Part shown: piece after piece, positions 11,294 to 32,199 of the stretch | Position numbering within the stretch: the first letter of the stretch is position 1 | Layout of the letters: each line of letters starts with the position of its first letter | Source: a virus | IMG/VR virus record: IMGVR_UViG_3300044640_002945 | Coordinates: 1 to 37,197 of that record | Strand: one strand, 5' to 3' | Length of the DNA stretch: 37,197 nt | The notes under the pieces: model-generated | Databases searched by the model: none | Seen by the model: only the letters and a program-made list of their open reading frames with translations | Told to the model about the DNA's origin: nothing | Program-made: the position numbers and the translations under genes

Positions 11294-11349
11294 AAATAAT
11301 AGGATAGCCAATATACTAAGGGCTGTAAAGCCTTGCAAGAAAAATAAAC

Positions 11350-11375
11350 AAAGCCTCATTTTATGGGGCTTTTTG
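11350..11375 (+). terminator. Rho-independent terminator of the late tail operon
   Basis: A nine-pair stem (AAAGCCTCA with TGGGGCTTT, one T-G wobble) with a TTTTA loop is followed by a T tract. It ends the rightward late unit and faces the convergent integrase gene. A weaker hairpin (AGGGCT/AGCCTT around 11320-11335) lies just upstream. Confidence 0.85.
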
Positions 11376-11510
11376 CATTATATGCACGTATTTAATTAAA
11401 AATCAATGTTTTGTTTATAAAATCCGTTCATTTCGGTGTCATATATCCTTTTTTTGGATTTATTTTGCAAAAATTTAAAACAGGCGTCGTAGCGGTTTTT
11501 TGTGCGCATT

Positions 11511-11555
11511 GCGTTTCAATAAATATCCTTTGAATTGATATTTATTGAAATCCGC
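11511..11555. repeat. Long inverted repeat in the non-coding region
   Basis: TTTCAATAAATATC (11514-11527) and GATATTTATTGAAA (11537-11550) form a perfect 14-bp stem around a nine-base loop. An outer GCG/CGC pair (11511-11513, 11553-11555) extends it past a two-base bulge. Poly-T tracts follow only after several other bases, so it is not a classic terminator for the late unit. It could be a backup terminator, a replication-origin hairpin or a packaging signal. The 569-bp region 11294-11862 holds no convincing gene. Confidence 0.7.
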
Positions 11556-11626
11556 AAAACATTTTTTTTTATTTTTTTTTTTAAAAAGTTTTTTTTCTCT
11601 CAAAAAGCCTTTTTTATTTGCAAACA

Positions 11627-11818
11627 TTGCAAACAGAGTTTAATTATTTGATTTTCATTTATTTAAGTCTTATTTTTATGTTTGAAAGTGTGTTTTTTTG
11701 TTTGCAAGTGTTTGCAAATGAAATCATTTTCCTACAGTTGCAAACAAGAAATGGCAATGTATTTTATTTAAAATATTGATTATTAATGTTTTATGTATTG
11801 TTTGCAATGTTTGCAAAT
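11627..11818. repeat. TTGCAA iteron-like cluster (seven copies)
   Basis: Seven TTGCAA cores occur in 192 bases. They include tandem pairs at 11627-11644 (TTTGCAAAC, ATTGCAAAC), 11701-11720 (TTTGCAAGTG, TTTGCAAATG) and 11801-11818 (TTTGCAATG, TTTGCAAAT), plus a single copy at 11738. Spacing within pairs is 9-10 bp, about one helical turn. The surroundings are strongly AT-rich. Such phased repeats are typical of initiator- or regulator-binding sites. Location between the late terminator and the 3' end of the integrase gene is compatible with a replication origin. Confidence 0.7.
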
Positions 11819-11862
11819 TTTTTGCCACTTTTAGGTCAAAAAAGTTTTTTTTAAAAAAAATA

Positions 11863-13094: not shown

Positions 13095-13136
13095 TGACCT
13101 GGACAGGATTCGAACCTGTGACCTACTGCTTAGAAG
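13095..13136 (-). other. attP core: 3' part of a tRNA-Arg(UCU) gene
   Basis: The minus strand reads exactly as the 3' 42 nt of a tRNA: anticodon loop CTTCTAA (anticodon TCT), stem GCAGT, variable loop AGGTC, T stem ACAGG, T loop TTCGAAT, CCTGT, acceptor strand CCAGGTC and discriminator A. T-arm pairing is perfect. The base pairs needed for the 5' anticodon strand (ACTGC) are absent upstream, so this is not a whole tRNA. Tyrosine integrases often use identity from the anticodon loop to the tRNA 3' end, so this is the attachment core. The host attB should be a tRNA-Arg(UCU) gene with 5' acceptor GACCTGG. Confidence 0.9.
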
Positions 13137-13199
13137 AAATAAGCCTCACTGTTTTTTAATGCTAAAAGCCTTTGTTTTTAAGGGGTTTAATATTTTTAT

Positions 13200-14846: not shown

Positions 14847-17800
14847 ATGATCGCACAGCAAAGTATTCAGAAAATATATAATTTGCCATTGCTCGATATT
14901 ATCCAGCAGTTTGTAGATCTTAAAAAATCGGGCGCAAATTATGTCGGCAGAAGTCCATTTGTCGATGAAAAAACTCCAAGCTTTACCGTTTCCACTTCTA
15001 AGAATATTTGGAAATGTTTTAGCAGCCACAACGGAGGCAATAATGTGATTTCATTCATTATGGCCTTAAAAAAATGCACCTTTGTAGAAGCCGTTAAATT
15101 AGCAGCTCAACTATCTAACATTAATCTTGAATTTGATGAATCCGAAAAATCAATTAAATATCAAGAAAAAGTATCAAAACAAGAACCCCTTAAGTCCGCA
15201 CTTATTGCAATCAAAGATTGGTATATCGAGCAATTTAATTCGCTGGATATAAATAGTCCGGTACGTGCCGAAATCAATAAAAGACAATACACCAACGAAC
15301 AAATTGAAGCCTTGCAAATTGGTTACGCACCCAAAGGACAATCCTTTCAAGAATTTTTGCTTAAAAATAAATTAACCGAAGCCGCCAAACAAATCGGGAT
15401 CATTACTCAAGAAAATAAATTACTTTTTTACGACCGATTAATGTACCCAATTTTAGATAAATGGAATAACTGCATCGGATTTGCAGGAAGAGCCATTGGA
15501 GAGCAAAAGCCAAAATGGATTAATCCACCAAAATCAATTATGTATGACAAAGAATTTGATTTTTACGGAATCCATATCGCGCGCCAAGATTTAGCAATCA
15601 AACAAAAAGCTATTTTAGTAGAAGGTTATAACGACTGCATCGCATTACAATCCGCAGGTTATTCCAATACATTAGCAATTAACAGCACCAGCATTACCGA
15701 GGCGCATTTTACAACCTTAAACCGTTTGAATATCAAACACCTTGTTTTAGCATTTGACAATGACGATGCAGGCATCAAGTCCATTCTTAAATTCATTCCT
15801 ATTATTATAGAAAAAGGATTGAGCGTTTCGGTAGCACTTCCTAAAGTTGAAAAAGATTGGGACGAAGAATTTAGAATGTTAGACCGCATTAAAAAGCAAA
15901 AACAAATCATTGAAATTGACGGCTTCGAGTATTTATTAAACAAAAAACTCGCACCTGGTATCGGCACCGAAAAAGCCATTGAACAAATCAATAAAGATAT
16001 TAATAAACTCAATATCGAAATTGACAAATTGAATCAAAAAAAACACCTCCAGCAGAATATTGTCAGCCAAATTAACCAAGACGAAGAGCCTAAAGAATTC
16101 CAAAAAATCAATAATGCCATTAAAAAGATTGATGTAGAAATTAATGCTTTTTCACGCACCATTGATGAAAAAATGACTAATCTTCAATCGTTGCAAGCGG
16201 ACTTATCTGATTTTTCGCAGCAAAAAAATACTATCCAAAAAGAGCTTTATAAAATTGCTATATCTTGCCCAGAGCCCAACCGACAAAATCAATATTTAGC
16301 AAAATTACAAAGCACCACCAAAATCGACAAGAAAGTAATAGCAAACTGGCAAACAGACCTTTTTAAGAATCCTACTTCCTCGAATACGGATTTTAAAAAG
16401 TACAATTTGCCCGATGGCTGTACCGCTAAGATTGAAGAAGTTGCCGAAATAATTGACAAGTACGGATTCTTTATGTCCGACAATCAAATTTGGAAAGCAA
16501 TAAACGACACCGCTCCAATTTTTTTTAGCTCCATAGCCAATTTCGAAATTGAAATCCTAAACCATATGAACGACGACAAATTTCCGAAGAAATTAGTTAG
16601 AATGCGGAATGTTTTAGGAAATCAAAGGATTTTCGATACCGATAGTGCCAATTTTAATACGCTCGACAAATTCCGTAATATGAGCACCGCCCACGGTAAC
16701 TTTAAATTTAGAGGCAGAGCCGACGACCTCGATATGCTTACGAACTATTTGTTTGATCAAATGGGAAGCGGACGAAAAGTAGATTCGCTCGGGTGGCAAG
16801 TAGATGGATTTTGGGCGTGGAACAACGGCATCACAATTCCTATTATGGACAATTTCCCTAGCAACCACCCAAAACATATCAATATTGACGAAAACGGAAT
16901 GTTTATCTACAATTCCGAAACGTTTTATCTACCTAGTGCCAACTTAATTTATCGAAATAATCCGATAATGTACACCAGCCAAAAAAAGCTTATGATTCGT
17001 GGCGCAAACGATTTGTCGTTGTACTTATTCGTTCAGCAGATGATTAACGTACACCGAGGACACTCCATGTTTGCGTTTCTATTTGCCACAGCTTCGTTAT
17101 TTCAAGATGTGATTCAATCCGAAATCCGAAACTTTCCATTAATCTTATTCTACGGCGCACCCTCTTCGGGAAAAGACCAATTGAGCAAATGCGTTCGTTC
17201 CCTTTTTGGCGATACGCAAGCACCTATCAACTTAGCAAGTGGAATTTCCACCGCCAAAGCACACATTAGAGAATTAGCACAATTTCAAAACACCATTTCG
17301 GAGTTTTCCGAATATAAAAATGGCGATTCTAAAATCGATGAAATGCTAAAAGGGATTTGGGACAGAAACGGATATAAAAGAGGCACGATAGAAAGCCGTA
17401 ACTCCGTGGAAGAAATACCAGTATTGAGTTCGGTAATCCTTACAGGAAATGAATATCCAGTAAACGATGCCTTAATAACAAGATTGATTTGGTGCGAATT
17501 TTCAAAAAATGCCTTTTCACTAGAAGAAAAAAAGGAATATGAGATATTGGACGATATGATCAAAAAAGGCATTAGTCATTTTACCGTAGAACTTTTGCAG
17601 TTGCGCCAAGATTTTGTGAATAAATTCAAACACAAATTTCGGTTTTTTCAATCAGAGCTCAAAGAAAACAAAAAATTGGCACATATCACCATTGACCGAA
17701 TTATCCAAAATTTATCGGTTTTGGGTGCCACGTATCAAATATTACTCGAAGCGAATTACTCGCTACCTTTTAATATGAATGATTTAATGGAGCACATCAT

Positions 17801-18263
17801 CATCACAACCGAAAATCAAATGCGTAAACTCAATACTTCAAGCCCTGCCGCTAAATTTTGGGATTTATTTGTCTATGGAATGCGCCACGCTTCGCAATAT
17901 CAAATCAAGCTTGATCTTGATTATCGTATTGACGGAAACGAACTTAAATTTAACTGGACACAGGTCTATGGAATTATACAAAAAGAATGGTGGTCACGTT
18001 ACCAAGAATCTTGCCCAGCCAAAACCAATCTTAAAGAGCAATTAACCAAACAAGGATATTTTATTAACGATAAAAGAGCCGAAAGGTTTGGAGAAAAAAG
18101 CACTTCCGTAGTGATGTTTGATATAAACCAATTACCAAACAAAGCCGATTTGCTCAACGCCCACGAATGGCAAATGGCAAGAGACAAAGATAACTTTAGC
18201 AGTTTTACAAACACCAGCCCCAATTCCACCACCGAAATTTCAGACAATCCTTTTTTTGACTAA
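14847..18263 (+). CDS. Toprim primase fused to P-loop helicase-like ATPase
   Basis: 1138 residues. Residues 30-75 align with the DnaG zinc-binding domain (GRSPFVDEKTPSFTVS then KCFSSHNGGNNVISFIM), but of the usual C-x2-H...C-x2-C ligands only Cys57 is kept, so zinc binding is doubtful. Residues 194-218 (FYDRLMYPILDKWNNCIGFA) match the DnaG core, and a Toprim domain follows with Glu259 in VEGYND and DNDDAG at 304-309. Residues about 365-485 are a long coiled coil. The C-terminal half has a Walker A GAPSSGKD at 770-777 and a downstream 'SSVILTGNEYP' plus Arg-containing 'LITRLIW', as in primase-helicases of superfamily 3/DUF927 type. It should make primers and unwind DNA at the phage origin. It is the replication core of the early operon. 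Confidence 0.88.
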   Translation: MIAQQSIQKIYNLPLLDIIQQFVDLKKSGANYVGRSPFVDEKTPSFTVSTSKNIWKCFSSHNGGNNVISFIMALKKCTFVEAVKLAAQLSNINLEFDESEKSIKYQEKVSKQEPLKSALIAIKDWYIEQFNSLDINSPVRAEINKRQYTNEQIEALQIGYAPKGQSFQEFLLKNKLTEAAKQIGIITQENKLLFYDRLMYPILDKWNNCIGFAGRAIGEQKPKWINPPKSIMYDKEFDFYGIHIARQDLAIKQKAILVEGYNDCIALQSAGYSNTLAINSTSITEAHFTTLNRLNIKHLVLAFDNDDAGIKSILKFIPIIIEKGLSVSVALPKVEKDWDEEFRMLDRIKKQKQIIEIDGFEYLLNKKLAPGIGTEKAIEQINKDINKLNIEIDKLNQKKHLQQNIVSQINQDEEPKEFQKINNAIKKIDVEINAFSRTIDEKMTNLQSLQADLSDFSQQKNTIQKELYKIAISCPEPNRQNQYLAKLQSTTKIDKKVIANWQTDLFKNPTSSNTDFKKYNLPDGCTAKIEEVAEIIDKYGFFMSDNQIWKAINDTAPIFFSSIANFEIEILNHMNDDKFPKKLVRMRNVLGNQRIFDTDSANFNTLDKFRNMSTAHGNFKFRGRADDLDMLTNYLFDQMGSGRKVDSLGWQVDGFWAWNNGITIPIMDNFPSNHPKHINIDENGMFIYNSETFYLPSANLIYRNNPIMYTSQKKLMIRGANDLSLYLFVQQMINVHRGHSMFAFLFATASLFQDVIQSEIRNFPLILFYGAPSSGKDQLSKCVRSLFGDTQAPINLASGISTAKAHIRELAQFQNTISEFSEYKNGDSKIDEMLKGIWDRNGYKRGTIESRNSVEEIPVLSSVILTGNEYPVNDALITRLIWCEFSKNAFSLEEKKEYEILDDMIKKGISHFTVELLQLRQDFVNKFKHKFRFFQSELKENKKLAHITIDRIIQNLSVLGATYQILLEANYSLPFNMNDLMEHIIITTENQMRKLNTSSPAAKFWDLFVYGMRHASQYQIKLDLDYRIDGNELKFNWTQVYGIIQKEWWSRYQESCPAKTNLKEQLTKQGYFINDKRAERFGEKSTSVVMFDINQLPNKADLLNAHEWQMARDKDNFSSFTNTSPNSTTEISDNPFFD

Positions 18264-18277
18264 AAATATAAATAATT

Positions 18278-18499
18278 ATGGAAGGAAAATATGTATGGTT
18301 TCAACCGCCAGGGATTAAATATGATGTATGTGAAAGAGGAGTAATATTTCCAAAAGACCCTGAATACATTTGGTATTTAAACGAACCTTGCAAAATCCTT
18401 ATTTCACAGGTTAAAATAATTCCTGATGAAAATGTTGAATACAATTTCAAAAAAAGAATAGGCTACATTAAAAACAAATCACAAATCACAAATCACTAA
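18278..18499 (+). CDS. Small early protein of 73 residues
   Basis: Soluble, with two Cys and several aromatic residues (MEGKYVWFQPPGIKYDVCER). It starts 14 bases after the primase-helicase and precedes the DnaA-like gene. The C-terminal tail (KNKSQITNH) comes from a repeated AT-rich DNA stretch (acaaatcacaaatcac), and may be a recent read-through extension. No family recognised. Confidence 0.5.
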   Translation: MEGKYVWFQPPGIKYDVCERGVIFPKDPEYIWYLNEPCKILISQVKIIPDENVEYNFKKRIGYIKNKSQITNH

Positions 18500-18509
18500 T
18501 CACTTATAT

Positions 18510-18863
18510 ATGACAAAATCCCAACTAATGATCCAAGGGCAAATAATAAAAACGTTAGTTCCGAAAGATTCAAAAGATATTTTGATTGATAAAATAAAAC
18601 AAATCTATCTAAAGGAGTTCAAATATGATATTGAAAACGTAACACGCATCGAAAAACGCAGAAGCAAAGTATGCATATATCGGCATTCGATATGCCACCA
18701 TTTACGCTTTTTAGGTTTTGAGCAAAACAAAATTGCATCATTACTTAATGTATCAAGAGCCAGCGTAATTTATCACGAAAATAAATTCAAAGACTATCTC
18801 GGTGTTCAAGACCCCCAAGCCGTAGAAACACATTACATTTTTTTAAATTACATAAATTATTAA
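18510..18863 (+). CDS. Stand-alone DnaA domain-IV-like DNA-binding protein
   Basis: 117 residues. Residues 46-97 resemble the C-terminal origin-binding domain of DnaA: a basic 'RIEKRRSKVCIYRHSICHHL' helix, then 'FEQNKIASLLNVSRASVIYH', which sits where DnaA has 'slpeIGraFGgRDHTTVlHA'. There is no AAA+ domain, so it cannot act as a full initiator. Beside the primase-helicase, a role in origin recognition or helicase loading is plausible. Alternatives are a transcription regulator or another HTH protein; the fold call is firmer than the role. Confidence 0.6.
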   Translation: MTKSQLMIQGQIIKTLVPKDSKDILIDKIKQIYLKEFKYDIENVTRIEKRRSKVCIYRHSICHHLRFLGFEQNKIASLLNVSRASVIYHENKFKDYLGVQDPQAVETHYIFLNYINY

Positions 18864-18880
18864 AAACTAATATCTAAATT

Positions 18881-19111
18881 ATGAAAGTTATCTTAACCTT
18901 ATTATTGGCTACAATAGCATTTATTTATAGCCAAGAGCGCAAGCAAAACGAAGTATTAATGCAAATGCTTAACCAACGCAAAGGACAAATCAAACGGGCA
19001 TTTAAAGCAGGCTATTTTACCCGAGAACAAACGGCAGAAATTCCAATAGTCTATACGTGGCCACATGATAGCAATAAATTTGAAAAATTTGTAAACAACC
19101 ACTTAAAGTAA
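18881..19111 (+). CDS. Small protein with N-terminal hydrophobic leader
   Basis: 76 residues. MKVILTLLLATIAFIYSQ is a hydrophobic leader that could be a signal peptide (cleavage near YSQ) or a membrane anchor. The rest is basic and helical (KGQIKRAFKAGYFTREQTAE). It is one of three tiny membrane-targeted products in the distal early operon. No family recognised. Confidence 0.55.
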   Translation: MKVILTLLLATIAFIYSQERKQNEVLMQMLNQRKGQIKRAFKAGYFTREQTAEIPIVYTWPHDSNKFEKFVNNHLK

Positions 19112-19859: not shown

Positions 19860-20021
19860 ATGAAAAAAATAAAATCATTTATCATTTCGCTTATAGTATT
19901 TATTGCAATAATCGCATTCTTTATTTTTTTAACAAATGAAATATTTATGATAGCAATATTTTTATTAGCTGTTTTTATTGGCGTATGGTATGTTGTCCAC
20001 ACTGAACTTAATAAAAAATGA
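19860..20021 (+). CDS. Tiny two-helix membrane protein (53 residues)
   Basis: The product is almost wholly hydrophobic: MKKIKSFIISLIVFIAIIAF followed by a second segment (MIAIFLLAVFIGVWYVV) and a short polar end. Two membrane helices with a short loop are predicted. The start lies four bases after the previous stop. Small membrane proteins at the end of early operons may act in superinfection exclusion or host takeover, but nothing in the sequence decides this. Confidence 0.6.
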   Translation: MKKIKSFIISLIVFIAIIAFFIFLTNEIFMIAIFLLAVFIGVWYVVHTELNKK

Positions 20022-20073
20022 TGACACTATGATGACACTTCAAATAATGTGGAAACTTCCTATGTGGACACTT
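20018..20073. repeat. Four imperfect 12-bp tandem repeats ATGwkGAmACTT
   Basis: The units are ATGATGACACT (20018), ATGATGACACTT (20029), ATGTGGAAACTT (20047) and ATGTGGACACTT (20062), with two ACACTTCAA extensions. They fall in the gap after the 53-residue membrane protein, which has no convincing gene other than a 16-residue open frame. Iteron-like spacing of 11-18 bp suggests a protein-binding site or a relic of slippage. Confidence 0.6.
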
Positions 20074-28169: not shown

Positions 28170-29144
28170 ATGCTAATCGAAACCACGCAAGAACTTCAAT
28201 TGTATGTACCTACCAGTTCGGCATTTAAGGAAGCCACGCTGACGCCCGAGCTTAAAACCTCGACGATGGAACTCGAACAAAGAGTTCCAAAAGAATTTTT
28301 AACCCATATCGAATCCTTGAAAGGTGCGGATAATTTGGGTGAGTTAGAAGATATTCACTATCACTTTGCTTCCTTTATTGGCAATATTACGATGTATCGT
28401 ATGATGCCTAAATTGTATAATTCCATTACAAGTGCAGGCATACGCACACACGTAACCCAAGAAACCGAACGCGCTACAAAATGGAGCTACGAAGACCAAA
28501 GAAACGCGTATTTGCTTGATGCTACCGTTCATTTAGAAAATGGTTTGAGTAAATTCTACAATTTACCGATGGGTACGTTGATGTCATTTATGAGCCAAGA
28601 CGAAATAGTAAATCACAAAAAACGCTTATTCAAAAATATTGATGATTGGAAAAGTGCGTTGAGTACGCGATGTAGTGTTTTAGTAATTCAAGAATTGAAT
28701 AATTATGTAGCCGACTGCGAGGAGAGTTATATTTTAAATCGATTGGATCGTGGGTATTGGGAAACGACAAAACAAGACCCGACACAGGAGTTTCAAAAAA
28801 CATTGATCAACTACGGCAGAAGATTAATTGCTTCGGCGGCACTTTTGCGCGGTTTGGGATTATTAACACTTTCTTTGAGTGCCGATGGTTTACGAATGAC
28901 TAGTTTTTATTATAACGAAACGCTCCACGGCGCACCGCTTGCGATGGATTTTATTATGAATTTAAAACGAAGCTTAGAAACAAACGTTACGCATTATCAA
29001 GGGATTTTTGACAAATATCTTTTGCAAAACGCGAGTAATATCCCTGGAATGACCAGTTCGGATTTTTATATACAAAGTCAAGAAAATTCGAGCGTTTTGG
29101 GAGGCTATAACAACGAAAACGCAAAAAGCACCTTTTTTATATAA
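28170..29144 (+). CDS. Head-tail adaptor candidate (DUF6712-like)
   Basis: 324 residues, mostly helical, with 'FASFIGNITMYRMMPKLYNS' and 'KWSYEDQRNAYLLDATVHLE' (about residues 68-125), as in the DUF6712 proteins found in Bacteroidota phage head modules. It ends the head/packaging unit just before a strong terminator. The role, probably a connector or minor head protein, is inferred from position. Confidence 0.55.
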   Translation: MLIETTQELQLYVPTSSAFKEATLTPELKTSTMELEQRVPKEFLTHIESLKGADNLGELEDIHYHFASFIGNITMYRMMPKLYNSITSAGIRTHVTQETERATKWSYEDQRNAYLLDATVHLENGLSKFYNLPMGTLMSFMSQDEIVNHKKRLFKNIDDWKSALSTRCSVLVIQELNNYVADCEESYILNRLDRGYWETTKQDPTQEFQKTLINYGRRLIASAALLRGLGLLTLSLSADGLRMTSFYYNETLHGAPLAMDFIMNLKRSLETNVTHYQGIFDKYLLQNASNIPGMTSSDFYIQSQENSSVLGGYNNENAKSTFFI

Positions 29145-29172
29145 CCCATATTTTTCTTTATATTTTTTCGGG

Positions 29173-29208
29173 AACCGCATTTTGCTTCGGCAAGTGCGGT
29201 TTTTTTTA
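29173..29208 (+). terminator. Terminator of the head/packaging unit
   Basis: AACCGCA...TTGC-TTCG-GCAA...TGCGGTT forms a stem with small internal loop and a UUCG tetraloop, followed by eight T. It separates the head unit from the accessory island. Confidence 0.92.
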
Positions 29209-29216
29209 TACTTTTG
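29209..29216 (+). promoter_or_regulatory. Promoter for accessory gene 29242
   Basis: TACTTTTG matches TAnnTTTG immediately after the terminator and 26 bases before the start codon. A possible TTTG lies 24 bp upstream, inside the terminator stem. The terminator-promoter pair is the usual sign of an independently expressed moron. Confidence 0.6.
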
Positions 29217-29241
29217 TGTTTCACTTTTAAATTAAAACATT

Positions 29242-29766
29242 ATGGAAGATTCAATGAAAAAACTATTTTTTGGTATTATTTGCCTTTTAGGATTATTTAC
29301 AGTAGGTTTTGGGATTATGGAATTTCTAAACGAACCTAAAAAAGAAAAGCCAGTAGTTATAAATAAAGCTAAAATATTAAATGAAATACACAATAATCCG
29401 AAACCAACTAGACCAAGACCTATGTATAACGAAGAGCAATTTTTTGAGAATTTAGACCCTAGTCAAATTTCAAGCTTAGAACCAGAGCAAAAATTTAAAT
29501 ATCGAATGTATATTTTAAACGCTCCTTTAGAAAAATACAATAAACTTGATGAGATTCAACAGGAAATGGTTATTTATCAATTAGGGGGCATTTTATATAA
29601 AGAAAAATGGGAAAATGAGTTTACCGATGATCAAAAAAAACTTTTTGAAACACAAATCATGAGTTGTATTAAACCAACAGCTGATGATTATCAATTGTCA
29701 AAGACTATGAAATTGAATGAGGTAGCAGTATCTTGTTATATGGTATTAAAATCTAGAAGATTTTAA
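29242..29766 (+). CDS. Membrane-anchored accessory protein (174 residues)
   Basis: Residues 7-29 form a single hydrophobic segment (LFFGIICLLGLFTVGFGIM), so the protein is anchored or exported with the rest outside the cytoplasm. The mature part is polar, Pro/Lys-rich then helical, with two Cys near the C-terminus (Cys152 and Cys166) that could form a disulfide. A possible second start lies at MKKL (29254). It has its own promoter between the head genes and the next accessory operon. Lysogenic conversion or superinfection exclusion is a plausible inference; no family recognised. Confidence 0.5.
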   Translation: MEDSMKKLFFGIICLLGLFTVGFGIMEFLNEPKKEKPVVINKAKILNEIHNNPKPTRPRPMYNEEQFFENLDPSQISSLEPEQKFKYRMYILNAPLEKYNKLDEIQQEMVIYQLGGILYKEKWENEFTDDQKKLFETQIMSCIKPTADDYQLSKTMKLNEVAVSCYMVLKSRRF

Positions 29767-29796
29767 AATAAAATAATAACATTATTTATTTATCTT

Positions 29797-29804
29797 TACT
29801 TTTG
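29797..29804 (+). promoter_or_regulatory. Promoter for the two-gene membrane module
   Basis: TACTTTTG (a TAnnTTTG box) lies 25 bases upstream of the 78-residue gene, in an AT-only intergenic gap with no other gene. No good -33 element is visible. It implies expression separate from the late genes, including possibly in the lysogen. Confidence 0.55.
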
Positions 29805-29828
29805 CAGTAATTTATAACTTATATTATT

Positions 29829-30065
29829 ATGAGTATCGTAGGAATTTTTAAAGACAAATTGTATATAACATTAGGTTCTATTCAAAAATATATAAATTGT
29901 ATTAGCAATTTAATGATAAAGTCTGATGATGAAAATTTAAAAATTTTATTAAAAAATCCAAAAGATAAGGCTCAATTTCAGAAAGCAATAGATGAAATAT
30001 TAAGAGATAATAAAAAAGAAAAAGAAATCGACATCAATGGTAGCACCATTGTAATATCTATGTAA
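29829..30065 (+). CDS. Small cytosolic protein, first gene of the membrane module
   Basis: 78 residues, helical, no signal or membrane segment. It contains one Cys (KYINCISNLM), a charged C-terminal half (FQKAIDEILRDNKKEKEIDI) and a short beta tail (GSTIVISM). Its stop is 12 bases before the large membrane protein. The pairing of a small soluble protein with a membrane effector resembles many phage-defence and toxin-antitoxin pairs, but no known family is recognised. Confidence 0.5.
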   Translation: MSIVGIFKDKLYITLGSIQKYINCISNLMIKSDDENLKILLKNPKDKAQFQKAIDEILRDNKKEKEIDINGSTIVISM

Positions 30066-30077
30066 GATTTAATTAAT

Positions 30078-31283
30078 ATGAATATTAATATTGCTTTTAA
30101 TACTATTATTTATATTATGATATTTTTATTTCCTGGACTAATTTTTAGGAGAGCATTTTTTTCAGGAAAATTTTCTAATAATTTTAATTCAGGAAATGCG
30201 TTTGAAAGATTAATATGGAATATATTGTTTAGTATTATTTCAATTTATGTTTTTTATATTTTATTCAAGTATTTAGACGTTTCAAATCATAAAATTTTTA
30301 GCTACAAATTACAAAAAGACCAAATATTTGAAACGTTCAAGTATTTATACGAAAATAAATTCCCTGTGTTGTTTTTGTCTGAAGATTTTATTAAAATATC
30401 ATTAAGTTGGCTATTTTTTATATACTTTTTTTCAGGATTAATCGGATTTGTTATAAATAAAATTATTATAATTATTGGATTAGAAAAATCATTCTCTGTT
30501 TTGAAATTTCAGAACAATTGGGAATACTTAATAAATTCAAATGGTAAAAATAATTCAAGCCATAATTTCTTACATTTGTATTACACTAAAGTTGATGTAA
30601 AAACTAAAAATCAAGAATTATTTACTGGAAAATTGCATGAAATTATTTATGACAAAGATAATAAAATTGAAGCTATTACAATTGAAGATGCTTATAAATT
30701 TTACAAATGCTCTTTAATTGATGATAAAGAAAAAATTGAATATATTAAAAGTAGTATTAATAAAGATGATCCTTATATAATAGAGCATCAACAAACAAAT
30801 TCAGAATACATTTACAGAAAAAAAATAAAAGGGAATTTGTTTTCTATTTTTATAAATGATATTGAGAACATATCAATGAGTTATATTAAAATTGCTAATT
30901 TTTATCAAAATCTTCAAATAAATTTAAAAAAACTTTTTACAATTTCTTTTGTATTGATAATTGCATTTTGTTTTTCATATATTATATGGGATTTTAATGT
31001 TTTTTTATTTGATAGTTTTAAAAGAAGAGTGGTCTTTTGTATTACTACTCCTTTTGTTTATTCTATTTTTAGTATGTTCTTAGTTTTTGCTTCAAATGTT
31101 AAACTATTTAGAATTAATTTAAAAAAATATTTAAAAGATTTGTTTGATGTATTTTTTATACTATTGCTTTTTGCAACACCATATTTATATGCTTTTAGTA
31201 TTCTTTCTTTTAAATGTACTATTTTTGCAATTTTAATAGTTTTCATAATATGTGGATTTATATTTAATAGAGATAAAAATTAA
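30078..31283 (+). CDS. Multi-pass membrane protein with internal cytosolic domain (DUF6338-like)
   Basis: 401 residues. The N-terminal 130 residues contain about three membrane helices, with 'FLFPGLIFRRAFFSGKFSNN' as a marked motif. Residues about 155-255 form a soluble domain that includes 'VDVKTKNQELFTGKLHEIIY', a beta-rich pattern reminiscent of the SH3-like part of DUF6338 proteins. About four more helices follow at 285-400. The gene is AT-rich even for this genome and sits in an accessory island with its own promoter. A membrane effector fed by a soluble sensor domain is a common abortive-infection or exclusion design; that role is inferred. Family match is from memory of the motif and is not certain. 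Confidence 0.5.
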   Translation: MNINIAFNTIIYIMIFLFPGLIFRRAFFSGKFSNNFNSGNAFERLIWNILFSIISIYVFYILFKYLDVSNHKIFSYKLQKDQIFETFKYLYENKFPVLFLSEDFIKISLSWLFFIYFFSGLIGFVINKIIIIIGLEKSFSVLKFQNNWEYLINSNGKNNSSHNFLHLYYTKVDVKTKNQELFTGKLHEIIYDKDNKIEAITIEDAYKFYKCSLIDDKEKIEYIKSSINKDDPYIIEHQQTNSEYIYRKKIKGNLFSIFINDIENISMSYIKIANFYQNLQINLKKLFTISFVLIIAFCFSYIIWDFNVFLFDSFKRRVVFCITTPFVYSIFSMFLVFASNVKLFRINLKKYLKDLFDVFFILLLFATPYLYAFSILSFKCTIFAILIVFIICGFIFNRDKN

Positions 31284-31286
31284 CCT

Positions 31287-31406
31287 ATGGCAAAGAACAA
31301 ATTAACAATCCCCGAAATTCATAAAAGCGCACTTAGTGCAAAAAAAGCAATTGAAAGAATTCAATTATTTGCAAAATTAGTTCAAAAATCAAACGACAAA
31401 AAATAA
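31287..31406 (+). CDS. Tiny basic protein (39 residues)
   Basis: The frame begins MAKNKLTIPEIHKSALSAKK three bases after the membrane protein stop and ends with LVQKSNDKK. It is helical and strongly basic. Being so closely coupled to the membrane gene, it could be a third member of the module. Its base composition is less AT-extreme than the membrane gene. No family recognised. Confidence 0.45.
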   Translation: MAKNKLTIPEIHKSALSAKKAIERIQLFAKLVQKSNDKK

Positions 31407-31434
31407 TTATGTGCGCAATGTGATACAAATGTAT

Positions 31435-31442
31435 TATATTTG
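31435..31442 (+). promoter_or_regulatory. Promoter P1 before the small RNA
   Basis: TATATTTG is a perfect TAnnTTTG box. It lies at the end of ACAAATGTATTATATTTGT (31425-31443), an inverted repeat (ACAAAT/ATTTGT), and 18 of 19 bases match the corresponding stretch at P2. Upstream ATGTGCGC (31409) plus TGATACAAA (31421) mirrors the immunity operator region (13732, 13746), suggesting shared control. Confidence 0.6.
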
Positions 31443-31448
31443 TACTCT

Positions 31449-31535
31449 CTTTTACTGATTGTGCTCAAACACCCAGTAGTTAAATGTTTTATTTTTAGTT
31501 TACTAGAAAAGCCTTGATTTATTCAAGGCTTTTTT
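31449..31535 (+). ncRNA. Candidate small RNA (about 87 nt)
   Basis: A promoter box and a terminator lie about 65 bases apart with no open reading frame of note between them, while a second promoter follows to serve the downstream genes. The predicted transcript has a TACTG...CAGTA stem around a loop (31452-31477) and ends in an 11-bp terminator stem. The exact 5' end is estimated from the -7 box. It may act as an antisense or regulatory RNA or as an attenuated leader; its target cannot be read from the sequence. Confidence 0.5.
31507..31535 (+). terminator. Terminator of the small RNA
   Basis: AAAAGCCTTGA and TCAAGGCTTTT form a perfect 11-bp stem with a TTTAT loop, extended by further T. It closes the P1 transcript before P2. 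Confidence 0.9.
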
Positions 31536-31556
31536 AGTGCATTTTATTTTTTAGTG

Positions 31557-31587
31557 TTGCACGTTGTGCACAAAAGTATTATATTTG
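31557..31587 (+). promoter_or_regulatory. Promoter P2 for fibre, lysis and tail genes
   Basis: TTG (31557-31559) is 20 bp upstream of TATATTTG (31580-31587), the consensus Bacteroidota spacing and the best promoter of the window. The spacer holds an inverted repeat TGCAC-GTT-GTGCA (31558-31570), an operator-like site, then ACAAAAGTA. The start codon at 31608 is only 21 bases past the box. No other terminator is seen until 11350, so this could drive about 17 kb of late genes. Confidence 0.75.
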
Positions 31588-31607
31588 TGGCGCAAAATGT
31601 TACACTT

Positions 31608-31871
31608 ATGATTGCAACGCCACACGATATACTATCTCCAAGCGAATTTGCTTTTAAACCTGCGGTTTTTGAGGAGGATAAAACATATCAAGTTACTTGT
31701 TTGGACGCATCGGGATTTATTTTATTTATTAGTGATGAATTATTGTCTATTAAAAAACACAAAGACCGCGGACAAATTGTGGAGTTTCTGTATGACGAAG
31801 AGGAGTTTAGAGCGTTTTATGTAGCTTCTTTTGAGCCCGAAAATTTAAAATTTGTAATTGATGAGCGTTAA
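31608..31871 (+). CDS. First protein of the fibre module (87 residues)
   Basis: 87 residues from the ATG just after promoter P2 (an upstream TTG at 31554 would lie within the promoter and is rejected). Mixed alpha/beta, acidic, with 'TYQVTCLDASGFILFISDEL'. It overlaps the next gene by 11 bases. It may be a small baseplate or fibre-assembly protein. No family recognised. Confidence 0.5.
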   Translation: MIATPHDILSPSEFAFKPAVFEEDKTYQVTCLDASGFILFISDELLSIKKHKDRGQIVEFLYDEEEFRAFYVASFEPENLKFVIDER

Positions 31872-32199
31872 GAATATTCAAGTAGCCAAAACATATCCGA
31901 TTATACGCCAGGAGGGCGATACTTCGATGCTTGAATTTCACGTTCCTGCTGATATATTATTAACAGGCTTTGAAGCTCGTTTTGGTGTTTTTAAGAAAAA
32001 TGGCGACCCGCTTTTTGTGAAAAATGGATCTATAAGCGGGCAAATAATATATTTTGAGATTGATGCGGTAGACACCTTACATAAGGTAGGTACGCATTTA
32101 TGGGAATTGGAAATAAGAAAATACATTCCAAGAGATGAAGTATATACCATAGGCAAAGGCGATTTTGAAATTCATAAACAACTATTAAAAAACATATGA
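31861..32199 (+). CDS. BppU-like baseplate protein
   Basis: 112 residues from ATG (an in-frame TTG one codon earlier is unlikely). The beta-rich pattern 'ADILLTGFEARFGVFKKNGD...' with 'THLWELEIRK' and 'VYTIGKGDFEIHKQ' near the end is typical of the N-terminal domain of BppU-type baseplate proteins, which anchor receptor-binding modules. It overlaps its upstream neighbour and is coupled to the next gene by a four-base overlap. Probably the platform on which the following fibre proteins assemble. Confidence 0.6.
   Translation: MSVKNIQVAKTYPIIRQEGDTSMLEFHVPADILLTGFEARFGVFKKNGDPLFVKNGSISGQIIYFEIDAVDTLHKVGTHLWELEIRKYIPRDEVYTIGKGDFEIHKQLLKNI

Follow-up and report, generated by a model that had tools for sequence, protein, structure and literature searches.

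Does the small gene behind the primase–helicase of a phage encode the DNA-binding domain IV of the bacterial initiator DnaA (DnaA-IV), severed from its AAA+ motor, and if so, which DNA does this domain bind and to what end? The question is raised by a virus record 37,197 b long, the whole of which was analyzed and is hereafter called the window. Its initial annotation had proposed an orphan domain IV next to a primase–helicase, acting either as a marker of the phage origin or as a competitor of host DnaA.

Genomic Context

The phage is Duneviridae-like and of Flavobacterium type. Its primase–helicase is nearest to those of Flavobacterium Duneviridae phages, with 36–40% identity over 79–95% of the length (13 matches), and family scans also identified int, an XRE-type repressor, and a head protease. 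The neighbor named in the initial annotation is indeed present: the CHC2/Toprim ORF lies on the same strand and ends 247 b before the start of the 117-aa ORF, within a tight row of ORFs (table 1). Codon usage of the 117-aa ORF (−0.042) falls under the 5–95% range of in-frame pieces from long genes (0.064–0.34) and is therefore of no help in judging it. The heptamer repeat just before its start codon was considered as a specific operator and set aside, since 7 of the 61 genomes of the genus Flavobacterium searched have the same type of repeat, which is probably an ordinary one in Flavobacterium. Elsewhere in the window, a long stretch (29001–32000) has a G+C content of only 20–29%, lower than most of the record. 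An Rfam search of the window found nothing.

Table 1. Coordinates of the Genes and Repeats Discussed in the Text
Coordinates	Strand	Feature	Basis
11618..11816		Seven exact TTGCAAACA copies, order FF-RR-F-RR; candidate replication origin	Repeat search
14847..18263	+	Fused primase–helicase of 1138 aa with CHC2 zinc ribbon, DnaG core, and Toprim, followed by a region that matches PHROGs 22657 and 1139	Family scans
18278..18499	+	73-aa ORF between primase and DnaA-IV gene	Family scans: no family
18474..18503		Heptamer repeat ACAAATC, 4.3 copies, just 5' of the DnaA-IV gene ATG	Repeat search
18510..18863	+	Protein of 117 aa with ATG start, very probably a divergent DnaA domain IV on its own; core ~ residues 24–117	Profile, models, alignment
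18881..19111	+	76-aa ORF directly 3' of the DnaA-IV gene	Family scans: only weak PF23932/phrog_1000
20018..20072	-	Four AGTKTCMWCAT copies with partial likeness to the DnaA box; candidate target of the DnaA-IV protein or of the primase–helicase	Repeat search

Predicted Structure

Two AF2 models of the protein were compared with known structures. The model built without an alignment is poor (pLDDT 55). Nevertheless, DnaA is its only full-domain match, the helix-turn-helix (HTH) core alone also resembling DeoR, sigma-4, and LuxR domains. With Foldseek, the DnaA DNA-binding domain 3PVP reached a query TM-score of 0.53, far above the next (0.38) among the 50 matches listed. With VIA, the top three entries were DnaA (Z 10.9, 10.9, and 9.2 over 91–94 residues), followed by DeoR at 8.9 over 49 residues.

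A second model, computed from an alignment of seven sequences, has a pLDDT of 82.7 and is not independent of the hypothesis, as it was built with DnaA-IV rows. Its top five VIA entries are all DnaA (Z 9.6–7.4), the next scoring 5.5 over 49 residues; in the top rows, 3PVP, 8BTG, and 1J1V, 91–94 residues align with an rmsd of 2.5–2.9 Å. As helical folds may reach such Z values through a common arrangement, the assignment relies on how far DnaA stands above the rows that follow and on the coverage of the full domain rather than on Z itself. Among PDB entries, Foldseek rows 1–4 are DnaA, but with poor E values (0.44–1.1). In BFVD, the best Foldseek E value (0.0065) is likewise rated poor; of the 50 phage matches listed, 16 carry the name DnaA or chromosomal replication initiator and one that of an HTH protein, with no other named family among those listed. 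The predicted model displays the DnaA domain IV fold, six helices over ~94 residues. Other HTH families, which match over fewer residues or with lower scores, come behind DnaA, in agreement with the original assignment.

Sequence Evidence for Kinship with DnaA

General searches were silent. The 117-aa ORF had no meaningful family score in Pfam, NCBIfam, or PHROGs and retrieved no PDB chain with phmmer, the only rows being at chance level (Rab15 effector, ribosomal S25). PF08299 did not match the ORF at E 5 (hmmscan), its gathering cut-off of 31.5 bits not being reached, and gave no candidate anywhere in the window. No AAA+ family was found in the ORF with Pfam, NCBIfam, and PHROGs; the AAA+ domain III that defines a full DnaA initiator is accordingly missing from this short protein, as the initial annotation had stated. 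Close relatives of the protein were found neither in 50,697 phage records nor in IMG/VR or GTDB contigs.

Because of this silence, we retrieved loci through the neighboring primase and searched their ORFs for DnaA-IV. A scan of IMG/VR with the single primase protein gave no matches, and the loci were fetched with a four-row primase alignment. The 80 GTDB loci kept look mostly like host DnaG genes rather than prophages, matching residues ~1–340 of the primase only. Among the 16,686 locus ORFs, the first two phmmer matches to the window ORF were lone DnaA-IV proteins (E 0.0076 and 0.026), aligned over residues 24–98. A further weak match, in locus L167, was dropped as it sits in a 1071-aa frame.

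A profile of ten DnaA-IV domains (eight lone domains and two host DnaA rows, the window protein being left out) gave the window protein 24.0 bits, whereas none of 5,000 shuffles exceeded 13.0; this score leans on two divergent rows, L176 and L177. The protein ranked first among the 197 ORFs of the window (E 3.7e-7; runner-up 0.016) and was the first nontraining ORF among 16,687 (E 2.7e-5; runner-up 0.021). A profile restricted to the eight secure members gave 13.9 bits against 12.2 for the best of 3,000 shuffles; the protein again came first in the window (E 5.6e-4), with E 0.04 among the 16,687 ORFs. The two host DnaA rows alone did not recognize it, and hhalign of the bare window sequence against six lone domains returned a probability of 3.5%. 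Taken by itself, the sequence evidence for kinship appears moderate, and marginal with secure members only. Together, profile scores, shuffle tests, and predicted structures uphold the proposal of a lone DnaA domain IV, and we consider it highly probable that the window protein belongs to this domain by fold and kinship.

Residues Kept and Lost

The window protein shares with DnaA domain IV (PF08299, Bac_DnaA_C; 1J1V, 3PVP, and 8BTG) its predicted fold over the whole domain and the order of its helices, which are colinear in the alignment. Only two columns, R50 and R58, are invariant among seven lone DnaA-IV proteins including that of the window. R50 aligns with Escherichia coli DnaA R399, so that the basic-loop arginine is present; R58 aligns with R407 of helix 3.

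Residues 399, 423, 432–435, 438, and 439 of DnaA contact bases, according to PMC5043019 and PMC7561715. In the alignment, the window protein has N73 at the place of E. coli P423, S82 or a gap at that of D433, R83 at that of H434, A84 at that of T435, and Y88 at that of H439. Unlike DnaA, it therefore lacks the box-reading motif of helix 5 (Asp433-His434-Thr435 and His439), in addition to domains I–III, and has one residue fewer in the turn between helices 4 and 5. Six other lone domains have four invariant columns, two of which, at the places of H434 and H439, are lost in the window protein.

The DnaA box is TTATCCACA. Box-like sites are at chance level in the window (54 vs. 56.3 expected), and a search for clustering showed no excess. 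As judged from the aligned residues, the protein seems to have kept the DNA grip of DnaA-IV and changed the DNA word that it reads. Since helix 5 has changed at the residues that read the box, its target is most likely a phage-specific site and not a DnaA box.

Lone DnaA-IV Genes in Other Phages

Lone DnaA-IV proteins are already known in phages, as in Cellulophaga phage phi46:3, and the window protein is a divergent variant of them. We searched PF08299 over whole records in 48 of the 80 viral loci fetched through a related primase. It exceeded the cut-off in 6 of these 48 virus records, as well as in both bacterial genomes, with weaker matches in two more. The pairing of a primase with a lone DnaA-IV gene recurs across eight loci. 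The two genes are 0–2.8 kb apart in seven of them (L064, L068, L077, L033, L086, L030, and L039), a nearness that in short contigs stems in part from the fetching of the loci by primase, and ~6 kb apart in L187. Conversely, among 17 loci fetched with one lone DnaA-IV family, a related primase was found within the stretch covered in three (L186, L187, and L199), which are records already found by the primase search. This recurrence rests on other lone DnaA-IV genes, not on relatives of the window protein itself. No DnaA-IV was detected, by eye or by profile, among the proteins encoded after the primase in phages of the Duneviridae and in a Porphyromonas prophage.

Like phi46:3 gp011, MW202748 dnaA, and the proteins of L064, L077, L033, and L086, the window protein is small, single-domain, and located in a replication module, a character that we infer for its own neighborhood. 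The phi46:3 gp011 "DnaA protein" (155 aa) is encoded among genes for SSB, methylases, and a DNA replication protein, and the MW202748 "dnaA" (163 aa) immediately precedes a replisome organizer gene. The lone domains of L064, L077, L033, and L086 pass the PF08299 cut-off and keep the helix-5 histidine, whereas the window protein does neither. Closer in character are the weak DnaA-IV proteins of L030 and L039, which are also divergent, below the PF08299 cut-off, and encoded beside fused primase–helicases (1093 and 1316 aa); however, their frames are longer (195 and 200 aa) and keep the helix-5 histidine.

In hosts, PF08299 was found in 116 of 121 Flavobacterium-genus genomes, nearly always as one full-length DnaA frame, with three shorter frames (130, 267, and 351 aa). 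Lone copies therefore look phage-linked in this genus. The "DnaA-like replication initiator" of phage Pascal is an annotation only (PMC4319499), and we found no study of the role of any lone DnaA-IV phage protein in the open-licence literature.

Repeat Arrays and Candidate Origins

Two repeat arrays of the window are candidate targets (table 1). The TTGCAAACA array, 3 kb upstream of the primase gene, sits within a 569-b AT-rich noncoding gap between convergent genes (11294–11862), beside int. Its seven exact copies all lie within 200 b, against a mean of 1.1 and a maximum of 5 in shuffles; with one mismatch allowed, there is no excess (31 vs. 26 expected), and only the exact, clustered copies stand out.

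Similar arrays accompany related primases. Among 51 loci examined, chosen from those fetched, 34 have a primase ORF of at least 1000 aa, and in 11 of these (L003, L008, L009, L019, L020, L024, L025, L035, L039, L069, and L087) at least four identical 9-mer copies begin 27–193 b behind the primase. Forward and reverse copies are arranged around AT-rich spacers, and each phage group has its own word, for example TTCTCAACA in laban-type phages. These arrays are likely origins coupled to the primase–helicase. The window has no such gap behind its primase; the order of its TTGCAAACA copies is near that of the arrays in L003, L008, and L020. As the profile detected no DnaA-IV in the stretches fetched for these three loci, this phage family can apparently mark an origin without a DnaA-IV protein. 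The TTGCAAACA array is hence more likely read by the primase–helicase, by analogy with phage P4 alpha, and the DnaA-IV protein would be an addition. P4 alpha is a primase–helicase that binds the repeats of its own origin (PMC4234260). The phages studied here resemble it in their fused Toprim primase and helicase-like part and in their putative origin repeats, present in relatives and, at a distance of 3 kb from the primase gene, in the window.

Over the whole window, the GC skew changes sign near 12.5 kb, being plus before and minus after, which is not the change expected for a two-way origin there. We also considered the TTGCAAACA copies as integrase arm sites and judged this less likely, as the tRNA-like match and the GTTAACTTT copies are ~1.3 kb away, across int. 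This match (13103–13139) spans 37 bases, resembles a tRNA T-arm, is 97% identical to stretches of Klebsiella and Erwinia phage records, and is flanked by the GTTAACTTT copies. It is probably the attP core before int.

The second array, described by the pattern AGTKTCMWCAT, which was drawn up after the copies had been seen, occupies a 77-b noncoding gap 1.2 kb behind the DnaA-IV gene. It precedes the last early ORF, upstream of the head genes.

Possible Role of the Lone Domain

The position of the gene straight behind the primase–helicase, in an early or replication row, makes a role in phage DNA replication most likely. Our best explanation, to which we give about an even chance, is that the protein binds DNA as an accessory or regulator of phage replication. 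The ORF product would be an HTH module detached from the AAA+ motor, its basic-loop arginine serving the minor groove. Its fold suggests site-specific binding to double-stranded DNA, at a site that the changed helix-5 residues would make a phage-specific one. It may serve replication either from a position at or close to the phage origin or through control of the replication genes. The primase–helicase probably itself recognizes the repeat-type origin as P4 alpha does, so that the DnaA-IV protein would come on top of it and not be the sole initiator. The origin-marking role first proposed appears no more than possible, as relatives with a like primase–helicase have a putative repeat-type origin and no DnaA-IV was detected in them.

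A phage transcription regulator that uses a DnaA-IV-like HTH on early or late promoters, without a part in replication, is a less probable though serious alternative. DnaA domain IV is after all an HTH module, whose core alone recalls regulators in the model built without an alignment, and the AGTKTCMWCAT array lies in front of the last early ORF and the head genes, where such a protein might act. However, the full-length structural match is to DnaA domain IV and not to regulators, and the gene follows the primase–helicase by only 247 b. The competitor of host DnaA considered in the initial annotation, a decoy that would occupy DnaA boxes at the host oriC or dnaA promoter and halt host initiation, is improbable. 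A small, free-standing, motorless protein with the fold and basic-loop arginine of DnaA would suit this task, but most of the box-reading residues are replaced (the five positions given above, with the roles assigned to them in PMC5043019 and PMC7561715), two of the four columns invariant in the other lone domains are lost, and box-like sites in the window do not exceed chance. Equally improbable is an unrelated HTH protein, made of a tri-helical core and additional helices, whose AF2 model is drawn toward DnaA domain IV: the marginal score with secure members, the poor Foldseek E values, and the shorter turn between helices 4 and 5 would fit it, whereas the model without alignment already has DnaA as its only full-domain match, the profile with intermediates reaches 24 bits, and the helices are colinear with both invariant arginines in place.

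A more specific and tentative reading, which we consider less likely than not, is that a DnaA domain IV freed from its motor acquired a different DNA word and now recognizes a phage-specific origin or operator. The candidate targets would be the TTGCAAACA array (11618–11816) or the AGTKTCMWCAT array (20018–20072). Phage P4 is not known to have a DnaA-IV protein. If this reading is true, the part of a bacterial initiator that reads DNA turned into an independent partner for a primase–helicase resembling P4 alpha. A fold and minor-groove clamp that are kept while the base-reading residues are swapped would show how the DNA reader of an initiator can be retargeted, and the window protein is a simple case in which to test this, since both candidate sites lie within its own 37-kb record.
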